This document shows positions 29,771 through 57,747 of a stretch of DNA of 64,000 bases, piece by piece. Numbering within the stretch: position 1 is the stretch's first letter; every line of letters begins with the position of its first letter. Source of the DNA: Natronolimnohabitans sp. A-GB9 (GTDB taxonomy: Archaea > Halobacteriota > Halobacteria > Halobacteriales > Natrialbaceae). The notes under the pieces are model-generated. The model did not search any database. It worked only from the letters and a program-made list of their open reading frames with translations, and was not told the origin of the DNA. The translations under genes were made by a program, and so were the position numbers. Location: positions 1-64,000 of the forward strand of contig NZ_JAVDDV010000015.1 of NCBI RefSeq assembly GCF_030848565.1. Reading direction: 5' to 3'.

Positions 29771-29773
29771 TAC

Positions 29774-29847
29774 CGTCCCCAGCGTCGAGTGATGCGTACA
29801 CACAGCCGACCGCTATCGGTTGTACCCATCACTGCAGGCTGGGGACG
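29774..29847. repeat. long imperfect hairpin downstream of mvaD
   Basis: CGTCCCCAGC (29774-29783) pairs exactly with GCTGGGGACG (29838-29847). Inside, AGTGATG (29789-29795) pairs with CATCACT (29827-29833). It is followed by the small palindrome GCCACTAGTGGC. No coding capacity. It could terminate mvaD transcription or be a further repeat element. Confidence 0.55.
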
Positions 29848-29932
29848 CCACTAGTGGCGGTCCACGCCTGAACTGCTGGGCGAAGTCAGCCGACACCCAT
29901 CGATTTCACCCAGCAGTCGACGGCTGGAACGC

Positions 29933-30016
29933 TATAGTAACAACTGCAACGGTTTACACACTGATCGCCGATCCGTCTGGCGATCAGGTGTGCAATGACT
30001 TGCAGTGGCTACTATA
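29933..30016. repeat. palindromic intergenic element, family C copy 2
   Basis: The ends are TATAGTAACAACTGCAACG and GCAGTGGCTACTATA. The inner arms ACACTGATCGCC and GGCGATCAGGTGT pair well around ATCCGTCT. The terminal sequences match the copy at 8936-9090, while the centre here is much shorter. Confidence 0.7.
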
Positions 30017-30247
30017 GTAGGGACTGCTGTCCGCCAGCACCGGCGATCCTCCGACCCACGACCCGCCTGTGGGTTCGCGGGCGGACGGGACACCGTACGA
30101 GGTCGGGTCCGGCCGCGACTCGAGTGAGTCCACGACCGCGGATCGTGATGTCACTATAGTATCGACAGTAACGATAGTAATCGAAATATAGATACTATAA
30201 TCGATCATTCCAATAAATTGAATATTCTATCCTCCCTACTACGTACT

Positions 30248-31246
30248 ATGTCGAACCGCCCGACACGGTCCTCCAGATCGGCTGAATCGACACCGGACAC
30301 CTCGCTCGGTCGGCGACGGCTCCTCCAGGGAAGCGGCGCCGCTGCGATGCTCGCTCTCGCCGGCTGTCTCGACACGCTTGGCTCGGAGTCGGACGACGAA
30401 TCGAACGGTGACGAATCCGACGACGACGAGTCAAACGGGAACGGAGACACCACTCCGGAACAGATCGACGTCGTCGACGCCTACCTCGAGGCCGCCGCCG
30501 ACGAGGAGATCGAGACGATGAGCGACCTCTCCCACGAACTGAATCCGTACGATCCGGCATCGTGGGTCGAAGAGGGATGGGAGTTCGAGGGTGGCGACGG
30601 TGAGGACGTCCCCGAGTACGACGCCGAGGTGCGAACGACCGACGGTGACGTCGAGGACGTCTACGCGATCGAAGGCGCCGAGTTCTGGTTTCATGACGTC
30701 GATCTCGAGGAGGAACTCGAGGGAGAATCGATCGCCGTCGTCGAACTGACGGTCGACGAGGAGACTGAAGAACGAAGTCTCTGGGTGCTCGCCACCGAAG
30801 ACGGCGAGTGGAAGATCCTCATTCAGGGCACCGAAGACGACACGCCCGATGATCCCGAGGAAGCCTTCGACGAACCGATCGAGGACGAAGCCGACGACGT
30901 CGTCGTCGGGATCGATTGGGAGCACGATCCGGACGACGGATTCGACGTCGATGACGAGGACGAGACCGCGACGGACGATCAAGACGACGAGTTCGACTTC
31001 GAGGTTACCCAGGCCGAGGTGACCCTGACCGATTCGCCGGGGCTCGAGGCACACACTGTTCGGATCGAGTCGGCGATCGACGGCTACGAAGGCGAAATCG
31101 GCGGTCCGGACCGAGAGCCGGGCGGCTGGGCAGGGATGCGACTGTATCCCACGTACGATCCCGACGGCGACCAGATCGAGGTCACCGCGATCAGCGACGA
31201 CGGCGAGACGGTCGTCCACCGGGAGCAGTACGAACCGGAACAGTAG
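30248..31246 (+). CDS. Tat-exported acidic lipoprotein, unknown function
   Basis: 332 residues from MSNRPTRSSRSAES; the signal is SLGRRRLLQGSGAAAMLALAGC, a twin-arginine signal with a lipobox cysteine near residue 43. It is followed by a highly acidic linker (DDESNGDESDDDESNG). The remainder, about residues 70-332, has no recognised domain; it contains an Asp-rich stretch around 215-255 and a C-terminal beta-like segment (WAGMRLYPTYDPDGDQIEV). Probably a surface lipoprotein. An AT-rich promoter (ATACTATAAT near 30190) precedes it. Confidence 0.78.
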   Translation: MSNRPTRSSRSAESTPDTSLGRRRLLQGSGAAAMLALAGCLDTLGSESDDESNGDESDDDESNGNGDTTPEQIDVVDAYLEAAADEEIETMSDLSHELNPYDPASWVEEGWEFEGGDGEDVPEYDAEVRTTDGDVEDVYAIEGAEFWFHDVDLEEELEGESIAVVELTVDEETEERSLWVLATEDGEWKILIQGTEDDTPDDPEEAFDEPIEDEADDVVVGIDWEHDPDDGFDVDDEDETATDDQDDEFDFEVTQAEVTLTDSPGLEAHTVRIESAIDGYEGEIGGPDREPGGWAGMRLYPTYDPDGDQIEVTAISDDGETVVHREQYEPEQ

Positions 31247-31412
31247 GCAGTGGTACGGCTCATGACACCACGTTCAGTACAGGTGTGAGCGTCGTGTGAG
31301 GATGGCGCAAAACCTCGTTTTATGTATCGTAACGAAACTGATCGCACAGCCGACGTGCGATCGGCGCGTGAACCGTGTTGTCCGACAGTATACGTTTCGC
31401 CGTCGGTGGATG

Positions 31413-32393
31413 TCAGGAAGATGCGTCAGGGTGGTCGCCGGCGTCCGTCTCGGGTTCGTCGCCGTGATCGTGACCGCCGTCGTCAACGACGTTGCGACGT
31501 ACGTCCGTCCGTACGATCGCACACGCTTCCGGGCAGACGAGTTGGTCGTCTCGCACCGACTCGATGCGATCCTCAGAATCGGTAGCTTCCTCGACCCCCC
31601 ATGCTCGCCTTTTCAGACAGCTGTTACACCTGTCTCGAATGACTGTCTCGACGTCTGTACGGTCTGCGTCAGCGAGACACTGGAGGTGACCAGTCTGTCG
31701 GTCGGCCATCTCACGGAACGACACCGGCTCGAGACGACCGGTACGGTCACGGTGCCAGGTCGCGATCGATGCGGGATAGACGTCGTCGACTGCCTGGACG
31801 ATACCCCTTGCATCGAGGAAGAGACGCCAGCCGCGTCGGAGTGTGTCGCTTCCGCGGAGCGGCCGATAGTCGCCGTCTGTGTCGGTCCGTGCGAGTGCCG
31901 GAAGTTCAAACAAATCGATTTGCTTAAGTGACTCGGATTCAGCGTCGAGGTCCTCGATATGACGGAGCTCGTACCGGCGATTCCCGGTCCGATCGCGTTC
32001 TACTCTCACTGCGAGTTGACCCCACGTTCGACACACTCCCTACCGGAGATCGTCGTACCGTGTGTCGATTGATCGGTCGGCTACATCGGCACCCTCGAGC
32101 CACCGGAGAAACGCTCGTCCCGGCGTTTCACGGCCGCCGACGATTCGATCCCAGTAAAACCAGTCGGTGACAAACGGAGCGTGGTGATCGATGACTTCCT
32201 CGAGAGTAGCGTACCGATGTGTGCCATCGTAGTCGTTGACGCGAACCCCGGATTCGGTCGCGGCTATGGAAACGATCGTGGGGTCATCGTAAGCGACGTC
32301 GCTCTCGTAACGATGTCCGACGATGTCACCTTTCTCGAGCGTCGTACGGAGTGTCGTACGGATATGGTCGGGTACCTCGAGTTCGTCCATCAC
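31413..32393 (-). pseudogene. DR2241-like 4Fe-4S protein interrupted by in-frame TAG
   Basis: Two adjacent open frames in the same phase are separated by one TAG at 32040-32042. Joined, they align with the intact 387-residue protein encoded at 55669-56832: FYWDRIVGGRETPGRAFLRW matches WRYWQETVGGEGTARRAFLRW, TWGQLAVRV matches EWGQLCITA, YPASIATWHRD matches YPATVANWHRE, and the paired cysteines CNSC and CPEAC align with the CCVDSQC and CREPC groups. The TAG falls in a variable spot just before TWGQL. The C-terminal tail differs and is His-rich (GGHDHGDE). It overlaps the upstream CbiX-like gene by 4 bp. Either a recent nonsense mutation or a read-through or split gene; the second part could start at GTG/ATG-like codons near 32036. 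Confidence 0.8.
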
Positions 32394-33250
32394 GAACCGT
32401 TCACCCCCGTCGCAGTTTCGAGGACGCGTCGAACGATAACGTCTGCTAGAGCAGGGTGGGTTCCGATCGGCTCGGTGTATCGGACGTTTCGGCCGTCGAT
32501 CTCACCAACGTGCGTTGTCGTCGTGTCGTCGATCCGGTGTGCGTGATCGAAACCGAGCAACTCGGGCACATCCGTCGTGACGTGGTCTCCTCGTCCGACA
32601 AAAAGCGGCACGGCGACGATCTGCTGGCGATCGAGCGATTTGAGGACCTCGCTCACGTACGGCGGCTCCTCGAGGTAGAACGCCTCGGAGACCGCCTTCG
32701 GGTTCCGGCGGCGAAGACGTTCCACGTGGTCGGTTGCTGCGACGGCGCTTCGGGGATCGTTCTCGGCCCCGTGAGCGATGATCGCGACGGCGACGTCCGA
32801 CAGATCGCAAACAGTGTCGTCGGCACGGCAGGCCTCGAGCGCACGCGACGCGATCAAGTCCGTGACTGCTGGCGCCGTACCGACGGGGCGGGTAATCGTC
32901 ACGTCGTCGACCGTGATGTTCGGTGCTGCGTCCAGTTCACGTGGCAGGACCGTTCGCGTGAAGTAGCCCTCGCTGACGAACAGCGGAACAACAAACCGGT
33001 GCGTGGCCGTTGTCGCCCGCAGCGCCTCCGCGAAGCTGGGTTCCTCCTGCCAGAAGGACACTCGCACCTCGTCGAACACGGGTCGCTCTCGGAGACGTCG
33101 TGCGTGGGCGTATACCGGATCTCCGGAGCCACGGCTCCGGGAAGAACCGTGAGCGGCGAGCACGACCGCCAGGTCGCGTTCGAGTGCTCGTGTTGTCGAG
33201 TTCGTTGGTCGGTACTGATGTCGATAGCCGTGTGGTGATGACTCTGTCAT
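32390..33250 (-). CDS. second CbiX-like sirohydrochlorin chelatase
   Basis: 286 residues with two similar halves. The first begins LAVVLAAHGSSRSRGSGDPVY and includes FVVPLFVSEGYFTRTVLPREL; the second begins VAVAIIAHGAENDPRSAVA and includes IVAVPLFVGRGDHVTTDVPEL. This is the long (CbiX-L) form that inserts Co2+ or Fe2+ into sirohydrochlorin-type rings. It resembles the other CbiX at 56836-57747 but belongs to a unit with an ABC importer. Metal choice cannot be read from sequence. It begins 3 bp after the ATPase gene, which supports co-transcription. Confidence 0.85.
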   Translation of the reverse strand: MTESSPHGYRHQYRPTNSTTRALERDLAVVLAAHGSSRSRGSGDPVYAHARRLRERPVFDEVRVSFWQEEPSFAEALRATTATHRFVVPLFVSEGYFTRTVLPRELDAAPNITVDDVTITRPVGTAPAVTDLIASRALEACRADDTVCDLSDVAVAIIAHGAENDPRSAVAATDHVERLRRRNPKAVSEAFYLEEPPYVSEVLKSLDRQQIVAVPLFVGRGDHVTTDVPELLGFDHAHRIDDTTTTHVGEIDGRNVRYTEPIGTHPALADVIVRRVLETATGVNGS

Positions 33251-33252
33251 TG

Positions 33253-34113
33253 CTATGGAATCGTATTCGACGGTGATGAGCCGTCAGTCGATGTCGACCT
33301 CGTCTCGAGCGGACGTTCCGGATAGATCCGGATCTCGTCGTCAGCCCGGGAGACCATGCCGTCGATTTCGAACACGTCGGCGAGCAACGCTTCCGTCAAC
33401 ACCGTCGACGGCGGACCGCTGTCGTAGACCTCGCCGTCGTCCAGTGCGACGATATGGTCGCCGAAGCGAGCGGCGTACTGGAGGTCATGCATCGCCGCAA
33501 CGACCGTTCGATTCTCGAGACCGGTCAACACCTCGAGGACGAGGAGTTGATTACGCAAGTCGAGGTGCGTAAGCGGTTCGTCGACGAGCAGGACGTTGGA
33601 GTTCTGGGCGAGGCACATCCCGATCCACGCGAGTTGTTGCTGGCCGCCGCTTAGATCGTCGACGGGCCGATCACGAATGGATGCGAGCCTGGCTTGTTCT
33701 ATCGCCCGCTCGATCGCCTCTCGGTCCTGCTGACTCATCCCGTCGAAGAACCCCCGGTGAGGATAGCGGCCGTGTTCGACGAGTTCTTCGACTGTGAGCC
33801 CGTCGGGTGACGGACGACGCTGTGCGAGAAACCCGAGCTGGCGCGCAAGCTCGCGTGTATCGTACTGCTGAATCGCACATCCGTTCAGAACGACCTGTCC
33901 GTCGGACGGCGAGAGTTTCCGGGACAGCCCCCGCAATAGCGTGCTCTTGCCGCTTCCGTTCGGCCCGATCAATGCTACTGTCGATCCAGCCGGAACGTCT
34001 ATCGTTACGTCTTCGATGACGGGATCCGTAGCGTCGGGATACTCGAGCCGAAGCCCGGACCCAGTCAGTACGGCGTTCGGTTTGTCTCGCCCATTGTAGT
34101 TAGCGTCTGTCAT
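33253..34113 (-). CDS. ABC transporter ATPase, FecE/BtuD/HemV type
   Basis: 286 residues. Walker A is GPNGSGKSTLL near residue 50, the Q-loop is GFLAQRRPSPDGLT, the signature is LSGGQQQLAWIG, Walker B is NVLLVDEPLTHLD, followed by AMHDLQ. This is the family that energises import of ferric siderophores, heme or cobalamin. It overlaps the permease gene by 4 bp. The operon also has a CbiX-like chelatase, so iron, heme or corrinoid-related uptake is the likely theme; the ligand is not determined. Confidence 0.92.
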   Translation of the reverse strand: MTDANYNGRDKPNAVLTGSGLRLEYPDATDPVIEDVTIDVPAGSTVALIGPNGSGKSTLLRGLSRKLSPSDGQVVLNGCAIQQYDTRELARQLGFLAQRRPSPDGLTVEELVEHGRYPHRGFFDGMSQQDREAIERAIEQARLASIRDRPVDDLSGGQQQLAWIGMCLAQNSNVLLVDEPLTHLDLRNQLLVLEVLTGLENRTVVAAMHDLQYAARFGDHIVALDDGEVYDSGPPSTVLTEALLADVFEIDGMVSRADDEIRIYPERPLETRSTSTDGSSPSNTIP

Positions 34114-35243
34114 AAGTTACCGAGTTGTCGTCGTTTCCGCATGAGATACAGGAAGTACGGTCCACCCACGAGTCCGGTGACGATCCCGACCGGCACTTCG
34201 ACCGGAGAGAACGCGAGGCGAGCCACGACGTCTGCAGCCAGCAACAGCGCTGGGCCGACGAAGAGACAGCCGAGAACGACGCGAGCGTGTGCTGTTCCGA
34301 CGATCGTCCGGACAACGTGAGGAACGATCAATCCAATAAAGCCGACGATTCCGGCGATTGCAACGCTTATTCCCGCTGAAAGGATCGCCACGCAGGAGAG
34401 TCCGAATCGGATCCGTTCGACCGGCATTCCCAGCGAGTGTGCCGTCTCTTCACCGAGCAACAACACGTCGAGCTGTCTCGCACCCGCAATCGTCAACACG
34501 ACAGTAACGGCGGTCACGAGTATCCCGATCCGGACCTGAGGCCAATCGACAGAGACGAGCGAGCCAGTCGTCCAAGCCAAGGCCCCTTGGACGACGCCGA
34601 GATCGTCAGCGACGAAAAAGAGCCCAGTCTGGAGCGAACTGAAGACGGTACCGACGATCACACCCGCGAGCACGAGTCTAACCGGACTGGTCCCGCCGTT
34701 CCAGGCGATGGCGTATACCAGCAGGAACGCGACCGCACCGCCCAGAGCCGCGAAAATCGGCAGCAAATAGATGAGACTTCCGAAAAACAGCAGTGTGAGG
34801 ATGACTGCGAGTCCTGCCCCCGAACTCACTCCTAAAATGAAGGGACTGGCGAGTTCGTTCCGAGTCACTGCCTGAAAGACCGCCCCAGAGATTGCGAGGT
34901 TGATACCAACGATGAATGCAGCGAGGGCCCGTGGCAGTCGTAGCTCCCAGACGATCGTCGTCTCTGTCGAGAGTTCGGTCGCCTCGCCGAACAAGGACGA
35001 CGCGATCCCCTCTCCGAGCAAGAACCGGCCCAAAGTAGCCGGATCACCCCACACTGCCGGATCGAAGACGGCACGCCAGGCTGTGACCACTGTCATCGAG
35101 TACGCGCCGAACGTCACCTGTATCACCCCCATTACGAGACAGACTGTGAGGCTGCCGAGGACGATGGGAACGAGACGCGAGTCGATCGACTCGAGGCCGA
35201 CCACGGTACGGACAGAATCGACGCGTGAGGAATCACTCGCCAT
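34110..35243 (-). CDS. FecCD/BtuC-type ABC permease
   Basis: 377 residues and about ten helices. Family hallmarks are WELRLPRALAAFIVGINLAISGAVFQ near residue 100, PFILGVSSGAGLAVIL, and the C-terminal GIVGFIGLIVPHVVRTIVG loop that contacts the ATPase. A 25-residue polar N-terminus precedes the first helix. It lies between the ATPase and the binding protein on the same strand. Confidence 0.93.
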   Translation of the reverse strand: MASDSSRVDSVRTVVGLESIDSRLVPIVLGSLTVCLVMGVIQVTFGAYSMTVVTAWRAVFDPAVWGDPATLGRFLLGEGIASSLFGEATELSTETTIVWELRLPRALAAFIVGINLAISGAVFQAVTRNELASPFILGVSSGAGLAVILTLLFFGSLIYLLPIFAALGGAVAFLLVYAIAWNGGTSPVRLVLAGVIVGTVFSSLQTGLFFVADDLGVVQGALAWTTGSLVSVDWPQVRIGILVTAVTVVLTIAGARQLDVLLLGEETAHSLGMPVERIRFGLSCVAILSAGISVAIAGIVGFIGLIVPHVVRTIVGTAHARVVLGCLFVGPALLLAADVVARLAFSPVEVPVGIVTGLVGGPYFLYLMRKRRQLGNL

Positions 35244-35248
35244 GACGG

Positions 35249-36430
35249 TTATGCGGTCGCAATCAGTTCGCGGAGCCGGTCACGATCGAACAGCCACTCG
35301 TCGTCTGGAACTTCGCCGACGCCGTGGAACTCCCCGAATTCCTCGGGGTACAACTGTTTTGCAAGCATCTCGAGCTGGAACAGGCTCGTGATCGGCCCTT
35401 GGTAGGGTGTGCCGCCGAGATAGAGACGCTCGTTTCTGACCGCGCTGATGTCATCCGCAACCGGGCTCTCATGGAGTGCTCGTTCCGTTTCAGCGGCGTT
35501 GTCGGGGTGGACGACACCGAAATTAAAGACGATAGCGTCGGGATCGGCTTCGGCTATCGCTTCGTGACCGATTCGGCTGGTTGCGCCTGTTTCATGAACC
35601 GACTCGTCGAACGCTTCGTGAACACCGAGCTGTCGATACTGCATCTGTCCGTAGGTGTCTTCACGCGCTGGCAACGTGTTGTAGAGGAAGTATGCATCAC
35701 CTCGCCCTTCCGGGTTCGGGCCTGCCAGGAGTAACGCGACACGAGGGCGGTTCGATTCCGGCGGAAGGCGTGCAGTAATAGACGAGCGGACATCGTCGCG
35801 GAACGCGACTATGTCTTCCATTCGATCGACAGCATCGAACAGCTCCGCGTATTTCAATAGTAGCTCGTCGTACTCGTAGTACCGGTATTCGCCGTCGGGC
35901 CAGTTCGGCCAACCACTTTCCCGTGCTTCTCGGCTATAGTTGCCAAAAAACGGAGCAACGTTGCGCTCGAGTTCATCGAGGTCGTTGACCTCGAGCCCGT
36001 TGTTGGCTACGAGTCGGTTGGGGTCGACTGCGATCACATCCGGATCCAGACTGTAGACGAGTTCCTTGTTCACCTGATGTGTCTCCGGTTCGATATCGGT
36101 GACATCCGTGAGGTCGATGTCGAGGCCCAGTGTCTCGTAGAAGTCGGTAAAGACGTCGTCCGGTCGGATCATCCCGACCAGCGAGTCGAGTTCACCGAGA
36201 CAGAGCGCCACGTCAACTGCAAAATCCCGTCCACCGATCCAGCGTTCAGGTGGCTGTTCAAGCGGAACCGTCCCGACTGGCTCGATCGAGATGTCGCCGT
36301 TGCCGTTCTCGTCGTCGGCGTCGGTGCCGCTCAGACATCCGGCACTAGCGCCGCTGAGAACCGCTGCTGCGATCGATCCGAGGGCTGTCCGTCGTCTGAT
36401 CCGTACATGTCGACTACCGGCGCTATTCAT
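35249..36430 (-). CDS. ABC substrate-binding lipoprotein, FecB/BtuF type
   Basis: 393 residues from MNSAGSRHVRIRRRTALGSI; the longer open frame lacks a signal, whereas this start gives a twin-arginine signal (RRRTALGSIAAAVLSGASAGC) and a lipobox. The mature part has the periplasmic-binding-protein III pattern: DFAVDVALCLGELDSLVGM, VYSLDPDVIAVDP, GHEAIAEADPDAIVFN and a C-terminal LFQLEMLAKQLYPEEF. Residues about 170-200 hold an aromatic-rich insertion (WPNWPDGEYRYYEY). It is the first gene of the importer operon. Confidence 0.92.
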   Translation of the reverse strand: MNSAGSRHVRIRRRTALGSIAAAVLSGASAGCLSGTDADDENGNGDISIEPVGTVPLEQPPERWIGGRDFAVDVALCLGELDSLVGMIRPDDVFTDFYETLGLDIDLTDVTDIEPETHQVNKELVYSLDPDVIAVDPNRLVANNGLEVNDLDELERNVAPFFGNYSREARESGWPNWPDGEYRYYEYDELLLKYAELFDAVDRMEDIVAFRDDVRSSITARLPPESNRPRVALLLAGPNPEGRGDAYFLYNTLPAREDTYGQMQYRQLGVHEAFDESVHETGATSRIGHEAIAEADPDAIVFNFGVVHPDNAAETERALHESPVADDISAVRNERLYLGGTPYQGPITSLFQLEMLAKQLYPEEFGEFHGVGEVPDDEWLFDRDRLRELIATA

Positions 36431-36789
36431 GTTCGACTCAGTCTTAATAATTCTGAATGCATAGTATTTATCATTCATAATTTTGTCTCCTATGTTATTA
36501 TCTACGACAACGCAAGACCAACACGGGGCGGCGTAGCGGCCCGTCGGATGGGAGTGCCGGCGAGAAGACGACGTGGACGGGACGGTACGAAAAGACCGAC
36601 CACGAGCAGCAGCAACCACTTGCCTGACGCTTGCAGGCTACGTCTCACCTCACGGAGCGACTGAAGGGAGCGGGTAGAATGAGGCCGTTCACCGGTTGGC
36701 GGACCACGCGGCGTAGTGGGTCCGAGACGACTTGCCACCGACGATCTACTCACGACTACGATTTTGCCCCTCGAGCCCGTACGACCAGT
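36431..36789. other. divergent promoter region
   Basis: No gene is supported. The first 60 bases carry the importer promoter with its dyad (separate entry). The remaining DNA toward the NDH-2-like gene is GC-rich and unremarkable. Confidence 0.5.
36449..36482 (-). promoter_or_regulatory. dyad overlapping TATA box of the importer operon
   Basis: AATTCTGAAT (36449-36458) and ATTCATAATT (36473-36482) are inverted repeats with one mismatch. Between them the minus strand reads GATAAATACTATGC, a good TATA element about 38 bp before the ATG at 36430. The arrangement suggests an operator for a repressor, possibly metal-responsive, but it is unlike a DtxR box. Confidence 0.45.
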
Positions 36790-47278: not shown

Positions 47279-47304
47279 CTATAAGTGTTTTAGGCCCACC
47301 TAAA
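47279..47304 (+). promoter_or_regulatory. TATA box with DtxR-like iron box
   Basis: CTATAAG at 47279-47285 is followed by TTTAGG-CCCA-CCTAAA at 47289-47304, a perfect 6-bp inverted repeat. DtxR/SirR/Idr proteins use TTAGG...CCTAA half-sites. Placed just 3 bp after the TATA element, it would block transcription of the downstream ATPase when metal is present. Confidence 0.65.
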
Positions 47305-47340: not shown

Positions 47341-48492
47341 ATGGCGAACGGACAACTACTCACGACAGCTGCTGAGGAACGACGACCAGAGCGCCGCACC
47401 GACGACGTGGTGCTCGAGCTCGACGGCGTCGCCAAGCAGTACGGCGCCGAGGAAGTGATCCCAGACCTCTCGTTGTCCGTCCGCGACGGTGAAATCCTCA
47501 CGCTGCTCGGTCCATCGGGATGTGGGAAGACGACGACGCTGCGTCTCATCGCCGGTCTCGAGAAGCCAAACGCCGGCACGATCCAACTCCGGAACGACGA
47601 CGTCGCCGGCAACGGTCGGTTCGTGCCACCGGAGGAACGCGGCGTCGGCGTCGTCTTCCAGGAGTTCGCGCTCTTTCCGCACCTGACCGCCCGCGAAAAC
47701 GTTGCCTTCGGCCTCCAGGACTGGCCCGAGGAAGAACGCGACGCCCGCGTCGCGGAACTGCTCGAGCTCGTCGGTCTCGAAAAACAGGGCGACGCCTATC
47801 CCGACGAACTCTCCGGTGGCCAACAACAGCGGGTCGCGCTGGCTCGCTCGCTGGCTCCCGAACCCGAGATGCTCTTGCTCGACGAGCCGTTCTCGAACTT
47901 AGACGTCGACCTGCGTGTCGAGATGCGCGAGGAGGTCCGCCGGATCATCAAGGAGGCCGGCGTCACGGCCGTCTCGGTGACCCACGACCAGGAGGAGGCG
48001 CTGTCGATCTCCGATCGCGTCGCCGTGATGAACCAGGGAGACATCGAGCAGATCGACACGCCACAGCAGGTCTTCCAGCAGCCCAAATCACGGTTCGTCG
48101 CGGGCTTTCTCGGCCACGCCAGTTTCCTCTCGGGGACGGTCCACGGCGACAGCGTCGACACCGCCATCGGTCGGGTTCTCCGCGACGACGTCAACGGTCT
48201 CGCTCATCAGTACGACGGGAGCAAGATCGATTTGCTGGTTCGTCCCGACGACGTGACAGCGTTCCCGGCTACCGACGAAGAGGCGAACGGGACCGTCGTC
48301 TACCGACGGTATCTCGGGCCCACCGTCCTCTATCGCGTCGAACTCGACTCCGGAGAAACGATCGAGTGTATGCACAACCACTCCGACCAGATCAACCTGG
48401 ACGAACGCGTCGCCGTCCGCGTCACCGCCGACCACGAACTCGCCTGGTTCCCGGTCGGCCAGCGCGAAAACGGAACGATCGCTGCGGACTAA
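47341..48492 (+). CDS. iron(III)/polyol/sulfate-type ABC ATPase
   Basis: 383 residues. Walker A is GPSGCGKTTTL, the Q-loop is VFQEFALFPHLTAREN, the signature is LSGGQQQRVALA, Walker B is MLLLDEPFSNLD and the switch is SVTHDQEEAL. Residues about 240-383 form a TOBE-like regulatory part. The type is FbpC/PotA/CysA. No permease or binding protein lies nearby. The DtxR-like box before it points to iron import (FbpC-like) as the likely role. Confidence 0.88.
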   Translation: MANGQLLTTAAEERRPERRTDDVVLELDGVAKQYGAEEVIPDLSLSVRDGEILTLLGPSGCGKTTTLRLIAGLEKPNAGTIQLRNDDVAGNGRFVPPEERGVGVVFQEFALFPHLTARENVAFGLQDWPEEERDARVAELLELVGLEKQGDAYPDELSGGQQQRVALARSLAPEPEMLLLDEPFSNLDVDLRVEMREEVRRIIKEAGVTAVSVTHDQEEALSISDRVAVMNQGDIEQIDTPQQVFQQPKSRFVAGFLGHASFLSGTVHGDSVDTAIGRVLRDDVNGLAHQYDGSKIDLLVRPDDVTAFPATDEEANGTVVYRRYLGPTVLYRVELDSGETIECMHNHSDQINLDERVAVRVTADHELAWFPVGQRENGTIAAD

Positions 48493-55574: not shown

Positions 55575-55671
55575 TCAGACGGACTGCTGTCCCGATCTCC
55601 CGTCGATCGCCAGCACGGGCACGGGCACGGGGTCGGCGATCGGCGAGACGTGACGACAGGGGACCGTATCA
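55575..55671. repeat. palindromic intergenic element, family A copy 5
   Basis: The left end is TCAGACGGACTGCTGTCCCG and the right end is CGTGACGACAGGGGACCGTATCA. The final TCA complements the TGA stop of the minus-strand DR2241 gene. Inner arms CGTCGATCGCC and GGCGATCGGCG pair around GGGCACGGGCAC. It fills the space between convergent genes. Confidence 0.82.
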
Positions 55672-56832
55672 GTCGTCGAGCCGTCTGGCCTCGAGGTCGC
55701 CCTCCTTGTCGACTCGCTTCGCGCGAAGGTAGCGGGCCCGATAGCGGTTCGCGCCGTCGTCGAGGTCGGCCTCGCGGATCTCGTCGGTTCGGCCGTCGGC
55801 GACGGCGTCGATCAGTTCCGCGAGCTGGTTGTACTCGCTTGTGGTCAACTCGAGTTCGTAGGTGTGTTCCGCCTCGGACTCGATAATCGTCCACTTGCGA
55901 GCGGCGGCGATGACGAGCGAACAGGGCTCCCGGCAGGGGAACGGGCCGTCGCCGCCGTCGACGTCGAGTTCGTCGTCCGCGTCGTACTGCCACTCTCGGC
56001 GGCGTAGACACTGGGAATCGACACAGCAGGCCTCGGCCATCCACTCGACGGCCTCGCGTGGCAGTTCGTCGACGACGTCGTAGATACCGGTCTGTCGCTC
56101 GGCGGTCTCGGTCCAGTGATCGACGTCTACGTTCCCCCAGAGCTCTCGATGCCAGTTGGCGACCGTCGCGGGGTAGAAATAGCCGACGGCCTCGACGAGT
56201 TCGACCCCCGAGAGGCCGGTAAACGCCCAGCCAGACGGGAGCGTGGGAGCGGTCTTCAGCGGTCGGTAGCGTCCATCCTCGTCGTAGGTGGCGATCTCGC
56301 GGGCATCGCGGGGCTCGTCGGAGACCTCGAGGTCGGCGATGTCGCTGTCTGCGTCGTCGACGTGCCACAGATCGTAGACGCGCTCGCCGGCGGCGTGCTC
56401 GGCGTCGTCGACGAGGCGGGCGGTGATACACAGCTGTCCCCATTCCCGATCGAGTCCCTCGTGCAGGGCGTCGTATCGTTCGGGGACGGCAAGCGGGTCG
56501 TCGACCGAGGGATGATCGTCGGCCACATCGGCATCGGCATCGGCATCGGCGTCGGCGAGTGGGGCACGCTCACACCACCGGAGGAACGCCCGCCGAGCGG
56601 TCCCCTCGCCGCCGACCGTCTCCTGCCAGTAGCGCCAGTTGGTGACGTACGCCGCAAGCGGCTCGAGGGCGTCCTCGAGAGCCGCCCGCTCGAGGCCGTG
56701 CCACTCGTCGCCGTCGGTCTCGAGGGCATAGCCGGCGTCCGTGTGGGCGATCCGGAGCCCGTCGAACGCAACCTCGCCGTCGGTGTCGACCGTCTCGAGC
56801 AGTGACGCGACGTCGGCTGTCGGGAGCGTCAC
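55669..56832 (-). CDS. DR2241-family 4Fe-4S protein of the cobalamin locus
   Basis: 387 residues. The N-terminal half (YVTNWRYWQETVGGEGTARRAFLRW, EWGQLCITARL) leads to YFYPATVANWHRELWG and cysteines ACCVDSQC and PCREPC, the putative [4Fe-4S] ligands. A C-terminal helical domain follows (LTTSEYNQLAELIDAVADGRTDEI). An Ala-Asp repeat (ADADADADADVAD) marks a linker, coded by a six-base tandem repeat at about 56524-56556. The family often accompanies or is fused with CbiX and may supply electrons or stabilise it. It is 3 bp after the cbiX stop. Confidence 0.85.
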   Translation of the reverse strand: MTLPTADVASLLETVDTDGEVAFDGLRIAHTDAGYALETDGDEWHGLERAALEDALEPLAAYVTNWRYWQETVGGEGTARRAFLRWCERAPLADADADADADVADDHPSVDDPLAVPERYDALHEGLDREWGQLCITARLVDDAEHAAGERVYDLWHVDDADSDIADLEVSDEPRDAREIATYDEDGRYRPLKTAPTLPSGWAFTGLSGVELVEAVGYFYPATVANWHRELWGNVDVDHWTETAERQTGIYDVVDELPREAVEWMAEACCVDSQCLRRREWQYDADDELDVDGGDGPFPCREPCSLVIAAARKWTIIESEAEHTYELELTTSEYNQLAELIDAVADGRTDEIREADLDDGANRYRARYLRAKRVDKEGDLEARRLDD

Positions 56833-56835
56833 GTA

Positions 56836-57747
56836 TCAGTCCCCCGGCTCCGCGCTCGGTTCGGTTTCGGGTCTCCGGTCGACGCCGTCTGCGGGCGTGA
56901 CCGCTTTCCTGATTGCCCCACGGGCGTCCCCGACGTCGGCTCCGGCGTCGGCCGCACGCTCGAGGACGACGTCGGCCATCAGCCCCTCGGTCCCGACGGC
57001 GCCAGCGTACCAGATGCGGTGGCCGTCGACCGTGGCGGGAACTGACCAGCCCAGCCGGTAATCTTCAGTTAGCCCCATATCCTCGGGAATGTCCTCCTGG
57101 GTGTGGTAGCCGTCGGCGACGAACAGCGGGACGACGACGACGTCCTCGGCCTCGAAGTAGTCGGTGACGTCGTCGACTTCGGGCTCCTCGTCCATGAACA
57201 ACGCCTTCACGTCGTCGAAGCGGTCTCGTTTTCGGATGCGCTCGGTGTGGTACTCGATGGCTTTCGCGGAGTTCTCGTTGCGTTCGGTGCCGTGGCCGAC
57301 GACTGCCAGTCCGACCCCCTCGCCGATGGTGGGGTCGCCCGTGACGCGCTCGGCCCGGCCGACGATCACGTCGGTCATCGCGTCGTGGGTCCCGACCGGG
57401 CCACAGTAGTGGATCGTCTTCCCGACGTCCGTCGCTTCGAGCGTGGCGTGGGTAGCGCTCGTCCCATCGGAGTCCCACTTCTTGGGGTCCCACTCCTCGA
57501 GTCGCAGTTCCCGTGGAATGACCTGTTCGGTGAAGTAGCCCTCGCTGATGAACAGCGGGACGACGAACACCTCGTTGGACTCGAGCGTGCGAATCACCTC
57601 GCGGAAGTGGGGTTCCTCCTTCCAGAAAGCCTCGCGGACCTCGTCGAACGCGCCCGTCTCGCGGACGGCGTCCGCGTGGGCGTAGGTCGGATCCGAAGCG
57701 TCCGGATTGAGATGTGACCCGTGTGCCGCGATGACCAGCGCTTGCAT
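56836..57747 (-). CDS. cbiX: sirohydrochlorin cobaltochelatase
   Basis: 303 residues of the long two-half type. The first half begins MQALVIAAHGSHLNPDASDPTYAHA and has FVVPLFISEGYFTEQVIPREL; the second half has LAVVGHGTERNENSAKAIEY and VVVVPLFVADGYHTQEDIPE. It puts Co2+ into sirohydrochlorin in early-insertion (anaerobic) cobalamin synthesis. Genes for cobN, cbiC and cbiE nearby set its context. A paralogue lies at 32390-33250. Confidence 0.9.
   Translation of the reverse strand: MQALVIAAHGSHLNPDASDPTYAHADAVRETGAFDEVREAFWKEEPHFREVIRTLESNEVFVVPLFISEGYFTEQVIPRELRLEEWDPKKWDSDGTSATHATLEATDVGKTIHYCGPVGTHDAMTDVIVGRAERVTGDPTIGEGVGLAVVGHGTERNENSAKAIEYHTERIRKRDRFDDVKALFMDEEPEVDDVTDYFEAEDVVVVPLFVADGYHTQEDIPEDMGLTEDYRLGWSVPATVDGHRIWYAGAVGTEGLMADVVLERAADAGADVGDARGAIRKAVTPADGVDRRPETEPSAEPGD

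Follow-up and report, generated by a model that had tools for sequence, protein, structure and literature searches.

The window analysed here, 64,000 nucleotides from the start of contig NZ_JAVDDV010000015.1 of Natronolimnohabitans sp. A-GB9, carries five minus-strand genes which encode, in transcriptional order, a substrate-binding lipoprotein (SBP), a FecCD-type permease, an ABC ATPase, a two-domain CbiX class II chelatase and a DR2241-type [4Fe-4S] protein (Table 1). The original prediction had read this locus as an importer operon joined to CbiX and a DR2241-like gene, and all five genes were recovered at the positions it gave. The genes are closely packed, with a 5-bp gap between SBP and permease, a 4-bp overlap of permease and ATPase, a 2-bp gap between ATPase and CbiX, and a 4-bp overlap of CbiX and the DR2241-like gene, the latter starting with a GTG codon that overlaps CbiX. 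The FecCD-type importer set is complete within the one operon (3/3 components over the Pfam cut-offs), and the domains of the five genes pass their Pfam cut-offs, with an N-terminal DUF7348 stub marginally below. The SBP contains a lipobox-like stretch ending in SGASAGC. Searching the surroundings of the operon against Rfam revealed neither a cobalamin riboswitch nor any other RNA match.

Table 1. Features of the window discussed in the text (positions of the 64,000-nucleotide stretch).
Feature	Position	Strand	Remarks
Insertion interval, mvaD to NDH-like gene	29771..36789		contains the operon plus one lipoprotein gene (30218-31246)
DR2241-type [4Fe-4S] protein gene with in-frame TAG	31413..32393	-	DR2241 87 bits (cut-off 26), Fer4_23 52 bits (cut-off 27)
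In-frame TAG stop	32040..32042	-	sense codon at the aligned position of the intact G299 copy
Two-domain CbiX class II chelatase	32390..33250	-	Pfam CbiX (PF01903) 109.5 bits, cut-off 22; two stretches
ABC ATPase	33253..34113	-	Pfam ABC_tran 8e-30; nearest NCBIfam model FecE, under cut-off
FecCD-type permease	34110..35243	-	Pfam FecCD 290 bits, 2e-86
Substrate-binding lipoprotein SBP (Peripla_BP_2), operon gene 1	35249..36430	-	Pfam 50.6 bits, cut-off 27.5
Upstream block shared with G299	36431..36483	-	AT-rich, probable promoter; from alignment; DNA homology stops at 36483
Standard CbiX (56836-57747) and DR2241 (55669-56832) pair, for comparison	55669..57747	-	

A syntenic copy with all five genes in identical order is present in G299, a genome from a different genus within the family, congeneric with Natribaculum breve. 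The proteins of the two copies share 78-79% (SBP), 89% (permease), 84% (ATPase) and ~79% (CbiX) identity, and the DR2241 of G299 is unbroken with 340 aa. With dN/dS values between the copies of 0.15 for the SBP, 0.11 for the permease, 0.15 for the ATPase, 0.20 for CbiX and 0.27 for DR2241, the comparison demonstrates that purifying selection acts on all five genes. Since the second genome shares the five-gene order, a near-identical spacing and ~50 bp of DNA 5' of the genes, all at an unrelated site, the association of these genes goes beyond chance.

In G299 a 6.6-kb block, composed of a thioredoxin-reductase-like flavoprotein encoded directly upstream of the cassette, followed by SBP, permease, ATPase, CbiX and DR2241, lies between hemL and a small gene adjoining hemC, within the hemB-hemL-hemC-hemD region, while the corresponding site of the congeneric N. 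breve (G017) measures 98 bp between flanks that are 96% identical. The site occupied in the window is the one between mvaD and an NDH-like gene, two genes that are separated by less than 150 bp in 14 of the 31 relatives fetched. The GC3 of the operon genes is 0.64-0.71, compared with 0.824 ± 0.033 for the 51 other genes of the window, and the G299 cassette likewise has a GC3 under that of its neighbours. DNA homology of the two copies begins ~50 bp 5' of the SBP gene and ends within DR2241. From the empty-site comparisons, the low GC3 and these homology limits it follows that the cassette moved as a block; the empty sites show its insertion as one unit at different places in two genera, and the low GC3 points to horizontal acquisition. 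The acidic lipoprotein-like gene that shares the mvaD-NDH interval gives no Pfam match and is missing from the site in the relatives fetched; its codon use is typical for the genome, unlike that of the operon. The cassette is rare: CbiX or DR2241 proteins of the operon lineage were found only in this genome and in G299 when overlapping sets of 392 order-, 125 family- and 391 class-level genomes were searched, and a search of plasmids with the operon CbiX returned only siroheme-cluster, purA-linked or distant relatives. Broad conservation of the five-gene order in haloarchaea, a check named with the original prediction, was therefore not supported, the order occurring in two genomes only among several hundred sampled.

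Most haloarchaeal relatives encode a standard, unfused CbiX/DR2241 pair near purA, with or without cobalamin genes nearby but not in the corrin cluster. The standard pair of this window lies ~1.5 kb from cbiE/cbiC/cobN; a third CbiX gene, on a different contig (L097), belongs to the cobalamin methyltransferase cluster. What had been taken for the same pair in a cobalamin locus is thus the purA-linked standard pair, the corrin-cluster CbiX being a separate gene. Nor is the operon pair a duplicate of it, as had also been proposed: in the two trees the operon proteins form one well-supported deep branch outside the standard and the main siroheme-cluster clades, the long branches of both trees leaving the exact branching order uncertain, and the operon CbiX is only ~35% identical to the standard CbiX, compared with ~79% between the operon copies, which excludes a recent duplication of the resident pair. 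Because the genome also has the standard pair, the horizontally acquired operon is an additional unit rather than the sole iron branch of the cell, and its long branch outside both clades suggests that the substrate of the operon pair may have changed. G299, by contrast, has the operon pair and lacks the standard one, so that the cassette could stand in for the standard pair there, in this one genome. N. breve and a further genome, G014, contain neither pair, indicating that the CbiX/DR2241 module is dispensable. The standard pair is also absent from G009, where SUMT is located between hemC and hemD; in Natribaculum and G014, which lack it too, hemC and hemD are adjacent and SUMT is found by the corrin cluster, together with a precorrin-2 dehydrogenase in Natribaculum (loci compared: L142 3221-4018; L175 3320-4708; L177 9465-10853).

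Among the genomes examined, haloarchaeal CbiX proteins fall into two classes. Class A is encoded in the corrin methyltransferase cluster, has a C-terminal ferredoxin-like domain and an N-half His pair, and is found both in this genome (contig C72, L097) and in G299 (L118), whereas class B pairs with DR2241 and bears the His pair in the C half. Weak additional CbiX-like genes outside classes A and B adjoin the corrin cluster in two genomes (G241 C1:426607-426894; G156 C102:25651-26274). SirB is a ferrochelatase. Its active site is formed by the N half (PMC4063343), so that the half bearing the His pair does not alone fix the metal, and sequence does not reveal which metal a class II chelatase uses. 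The operon CbiX follows the class B pattern, with the putative catalytic residues His160 and His223 in the C-terminal half, whose counterparts in the alignment with Paracoccus CbiX (structure 4ccs) are His127 and His187, both essential for sirohydrochlorin ferrochelatase activity (PMC4063343). It scores under the PRK02395 equivalog cut-offs (NF002670/NF002671; 193.5 vs 258 and 174 vs 324), both of which are passed by the standard CbiX of the window. In Deinococcus, class B CbiX is fused to DR2241 and clustered with sat, cysH, cysC, a nitrite/sulphite reductase and SUMT, and in CbiC-less haloarchaea (G376, G274, G144, G106, G165 and G235) the fusion occurs with a NirA-type reductase and SUMT, with a precorrin-2 dehydrogenase nearby. 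Siroheme genes are thus found in clusters with the relatives and the G299 copy sits in the hem region, while none lies beside the operon in the window. The gene clusters and the His pattern are in line with the original suggestion of an iron (siroheme) branch apart from cobalt insertion, provided that the operon is not regarded as the only iron branch of the cell.

The profile of the SBP matched iron-uptake binding proteins in the PDB (FeuA-type 2phz/2why and YfiY), but neither BtuF nor heme-binding SBPs. The importer also stays below the BtuC equivalog cut-offs of NCBIfam (212.5 vs 334; 204.8 vs 461) and below the curated heme-ATPase cut-offs. Homologues of the importer carry TTAGGC-NN-GCCTAA directly upstream in 21 fetched loci and often adjoin a thioredoxin-reductase-like flavoprotein, as in G299, and in haloarchaea (Haloferax) iron starvation induces fhu importers of this type (PMC11349517). 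Taken together, the SBP profile, the iron boxes and flavoproteins of the homologues and the fhu induction favour a ferric chelate as substrate. The iron box itself (TTAGGCNNGCCTAA, DtxR-type fhu regulon) was found neither upstream of the window operon, allowing two mismatches, nor at the G299 operon, suggesting that the regulation of both copies differs and may not follow iron; the importers examined in G017 and G014 likewise have no box. The literature searched for a haloarchaeal flavin siderophore reductase gave no useful result. Elsewhere in the window, a one-mismatch match to TTAGGCNNGCCTAA at 47290-47303, which precedes an ABC ATPase-like ORF (47341-48492) by ~40 bp, is at chance level (0.43 expected). 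Near importer homologues of two haloarchaeal families, cytochrome bd-like (cydAB) genes are located (L063 1263-3693; L065 4763-7178; L068 3420-5835), and G017 and G014 have a gene for a SnoaL-like protein between the SBP and permease of their homologous importers (L063 7789-8241; L064 6967-7419).

The DR2241-like gene of the window is a single frame which the TAG splits into 117 and 207 aa, with no other damage. The stop lies ~8 residues into the DR2241 domain; the DR2241 and Fer4_23 domains are detected after it, and all four cluster cysteines, with conserved CxxC and CxxxC motifs, are C-terminal to it. Relative to G299, dN/dS is 0.27 both before and after the stop. Together with the sense codon in G299, this indicates that the gene was under selection through most of its history and that the stop either arose recently, reflects an error or is tolerated. 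In both copies the C-terminal ANRYRARYLRAKR segment of the haloarchaeal standard form is absent and replaced by a short acidic HDHG tail; the His-rich tail ascribed to the broken partner is accordingly an acidic stretch with just three His, although HDHG recurs in the G299 copy and is absent from standard DR2241. Decoding of the TAG as pyrrolysine was rejected, with the best PylS match in the genome reaching 29 bits against a cut-off of 178 and no recurrent TAG here in homologues; a TAG noted in G103 falls beyond the aligned part of the gene and does not represent a recurrence. A working split protein, arising by readthrough or by a new translation start at the GTG one codon further on, would agree with the otherwise undamaged gene, with the equal dN/dS on both sides of the stop and with the immediate position of the GTG start. 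We nevertheless consider it very improbable, given that no PylS exceeds the cut-off, that TAG acts as an ordinary stop in this window (terminating, for example, the operon ATPase gene), that homologues do not share the stop, that it falls inside the DR2241 domain, and that a recent mutation or sequencing error accounts for it equally well.

Several known systems resemble parts of the operon. The CbiX-DR2241 protein of Deinococcus radiodurans (PRK02395, 2jh3) has the same set of chelatase, DR2241 and 4Fe-4S domains (operon CbiX domain 5e-17, DR2241 part 3e-15), but is fused and encoded with sulphate-assimilation genes, whereas in the operon the two are separate genes joined to an importer. In Paracoccus pantotrophus, CbiX is, like the operon CbiX, a two-domain protein whose active-site His pair lies in the C half, but it has neither importer nor DR2241 partner, and its ferrochelatase activity is proven while that of the operon CbiX is putative (4ccs; PMC4063343). 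Haloarchaeal cbiX2 (HVO_1128, a predicted ferrochelatase) and cbiX3 (NP_0734A, unassigned) are likewise additional CbiX paralogues located away from the corrin cluster, and cbiX2 is kept in a species without B12 synthesis (PMC8305020, PMC3403918), yet the operon CbiX forms its own deep branch in this sample. The haloarchaeal fhuCGD siderophore importers share layout and family with the SBP/FecCD/ATPase genes, but are preceded by an iron-regulon signal and described without a chelatase (PMC11349517), whereas the operon includes a chelatase pair and lacks the box. In Desulfovibrio, cbiK-cbiL and btuCDF under one B12 element couple a class II chelatase to a FecCD-type importer by co-regulation (PMC545781); however, the chelatase there is CbiK and regulation is by cobalamin, while the operon has CbiX and no riboswitch. 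Each part of the operon thus belongs to a known family, and what is new is the union of a FecCD importer with class B CbiX and DR2241 in a moving unit, which was not found elsewhere in the sampled genomes or in the literature searched.

We tentatively favour the explanation that the horizontally acquired cassette couples iron-chelate uptake with sirohydrochlorin ferrochelation, a reading for which the chances appear nearly balanced, and from which we infer the substrate, the metal, the role of the partner and the benefit of the cassette. The lipoprotein would bind a ferric, siderophore-like chelate, which the FecCD permease and ATPase would import; the iron would be reduced in the cytoplasm, in G299 possibly via the upstream flavoprotein, and CbiX would place Fe2+ into sirohydrochlorin via His160/His223 to yield siroheme, with the DR2241-type [4Fe-4S] protein as a partner subunit of the chelatase that may exert redox or iron-status control. 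In this strain, where the DR2241 gene is cut, CbiX probably acts alone or with the standard DR2241, or the unit has started to decay. The missing iron box, the truncated DR2241, the long branch of the operon pair, the standard pair already present and the dispensability of the module count against the ferrochelation reading. In a further step, which we regard as unlikely, the operon would be a mobile, co-translated uptake-to-cofactor cassette outside the usual iron regulon that passes imported iron to a dedicated sirohydrochlorin chelatase with its Fe-S partner and, in one species, takes the place of the lost standard pair.

The importer could also serve tetrapyrrole salvage, with imported heme, siroheme or corrinoid being stripped of its metal or having it exchanged by CbiX working in reverse or in remodelling, and the DR2241 cluster supplying electrons. 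Heme and B12 systems do occur among FecCD-type importers, heme-uptake operons with chelatase homologues are known (HmuS, PMC13227078), Desulfovibrio co-regulates cbiK and btuCDF (PMC545781), and the G299 cassette is inserted among hem genes; however, HmuS is a CobN-type and not a CbiX chelatase, the hem region is just one of two insertion sites, and the SBP profile and the BtuC and heme-ATPase scores point away from such substrates, so that salvage appears rather improbable. Still more doubtful is the import of a cobalt chelate for an additional cobaltochelatase supplying B12. Class II chelatases often accept cobalt, and cbiC, a gene of the de novo corrin route, is present in both host genomes, but both also encode a distinct CbiX within the corrin methyltransferase cluster, CbiX/DR2241 relatives are present in CbiC-less genomes, and no cobalamin riboswitch or other Rfam match lies near the operon. 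That a transferred importer operon carried the chelatase pair by chance, leaving a unit that is inert or decaying here, would fit its rarity, the broken DR2241 and the atypical codon use. This is likewise of low probability, because the genes overlap, the unit is conserved at two unrelated sites, all five genes are under purifying selection and the copy in G299, a genome without the standard pair, is intact.

If the coupling of iron-chelate uptake to ferrochelation is true, the cassette represents a rare natural link from metal-chelate uptake to insertion into a tetrapyrrole, and G299 and N. breve form a ready pair, with and without the cassette, for testing it. More widely, the iron-insertion step of haloarchaeal siroheme and heme synthesis has no proven enzyme (PMC8305020), and the context gathered here points to the CbiX/DR2241 module as this enzyme, by which the DR2241-type [4Fe-4S] protein gains a likely role.
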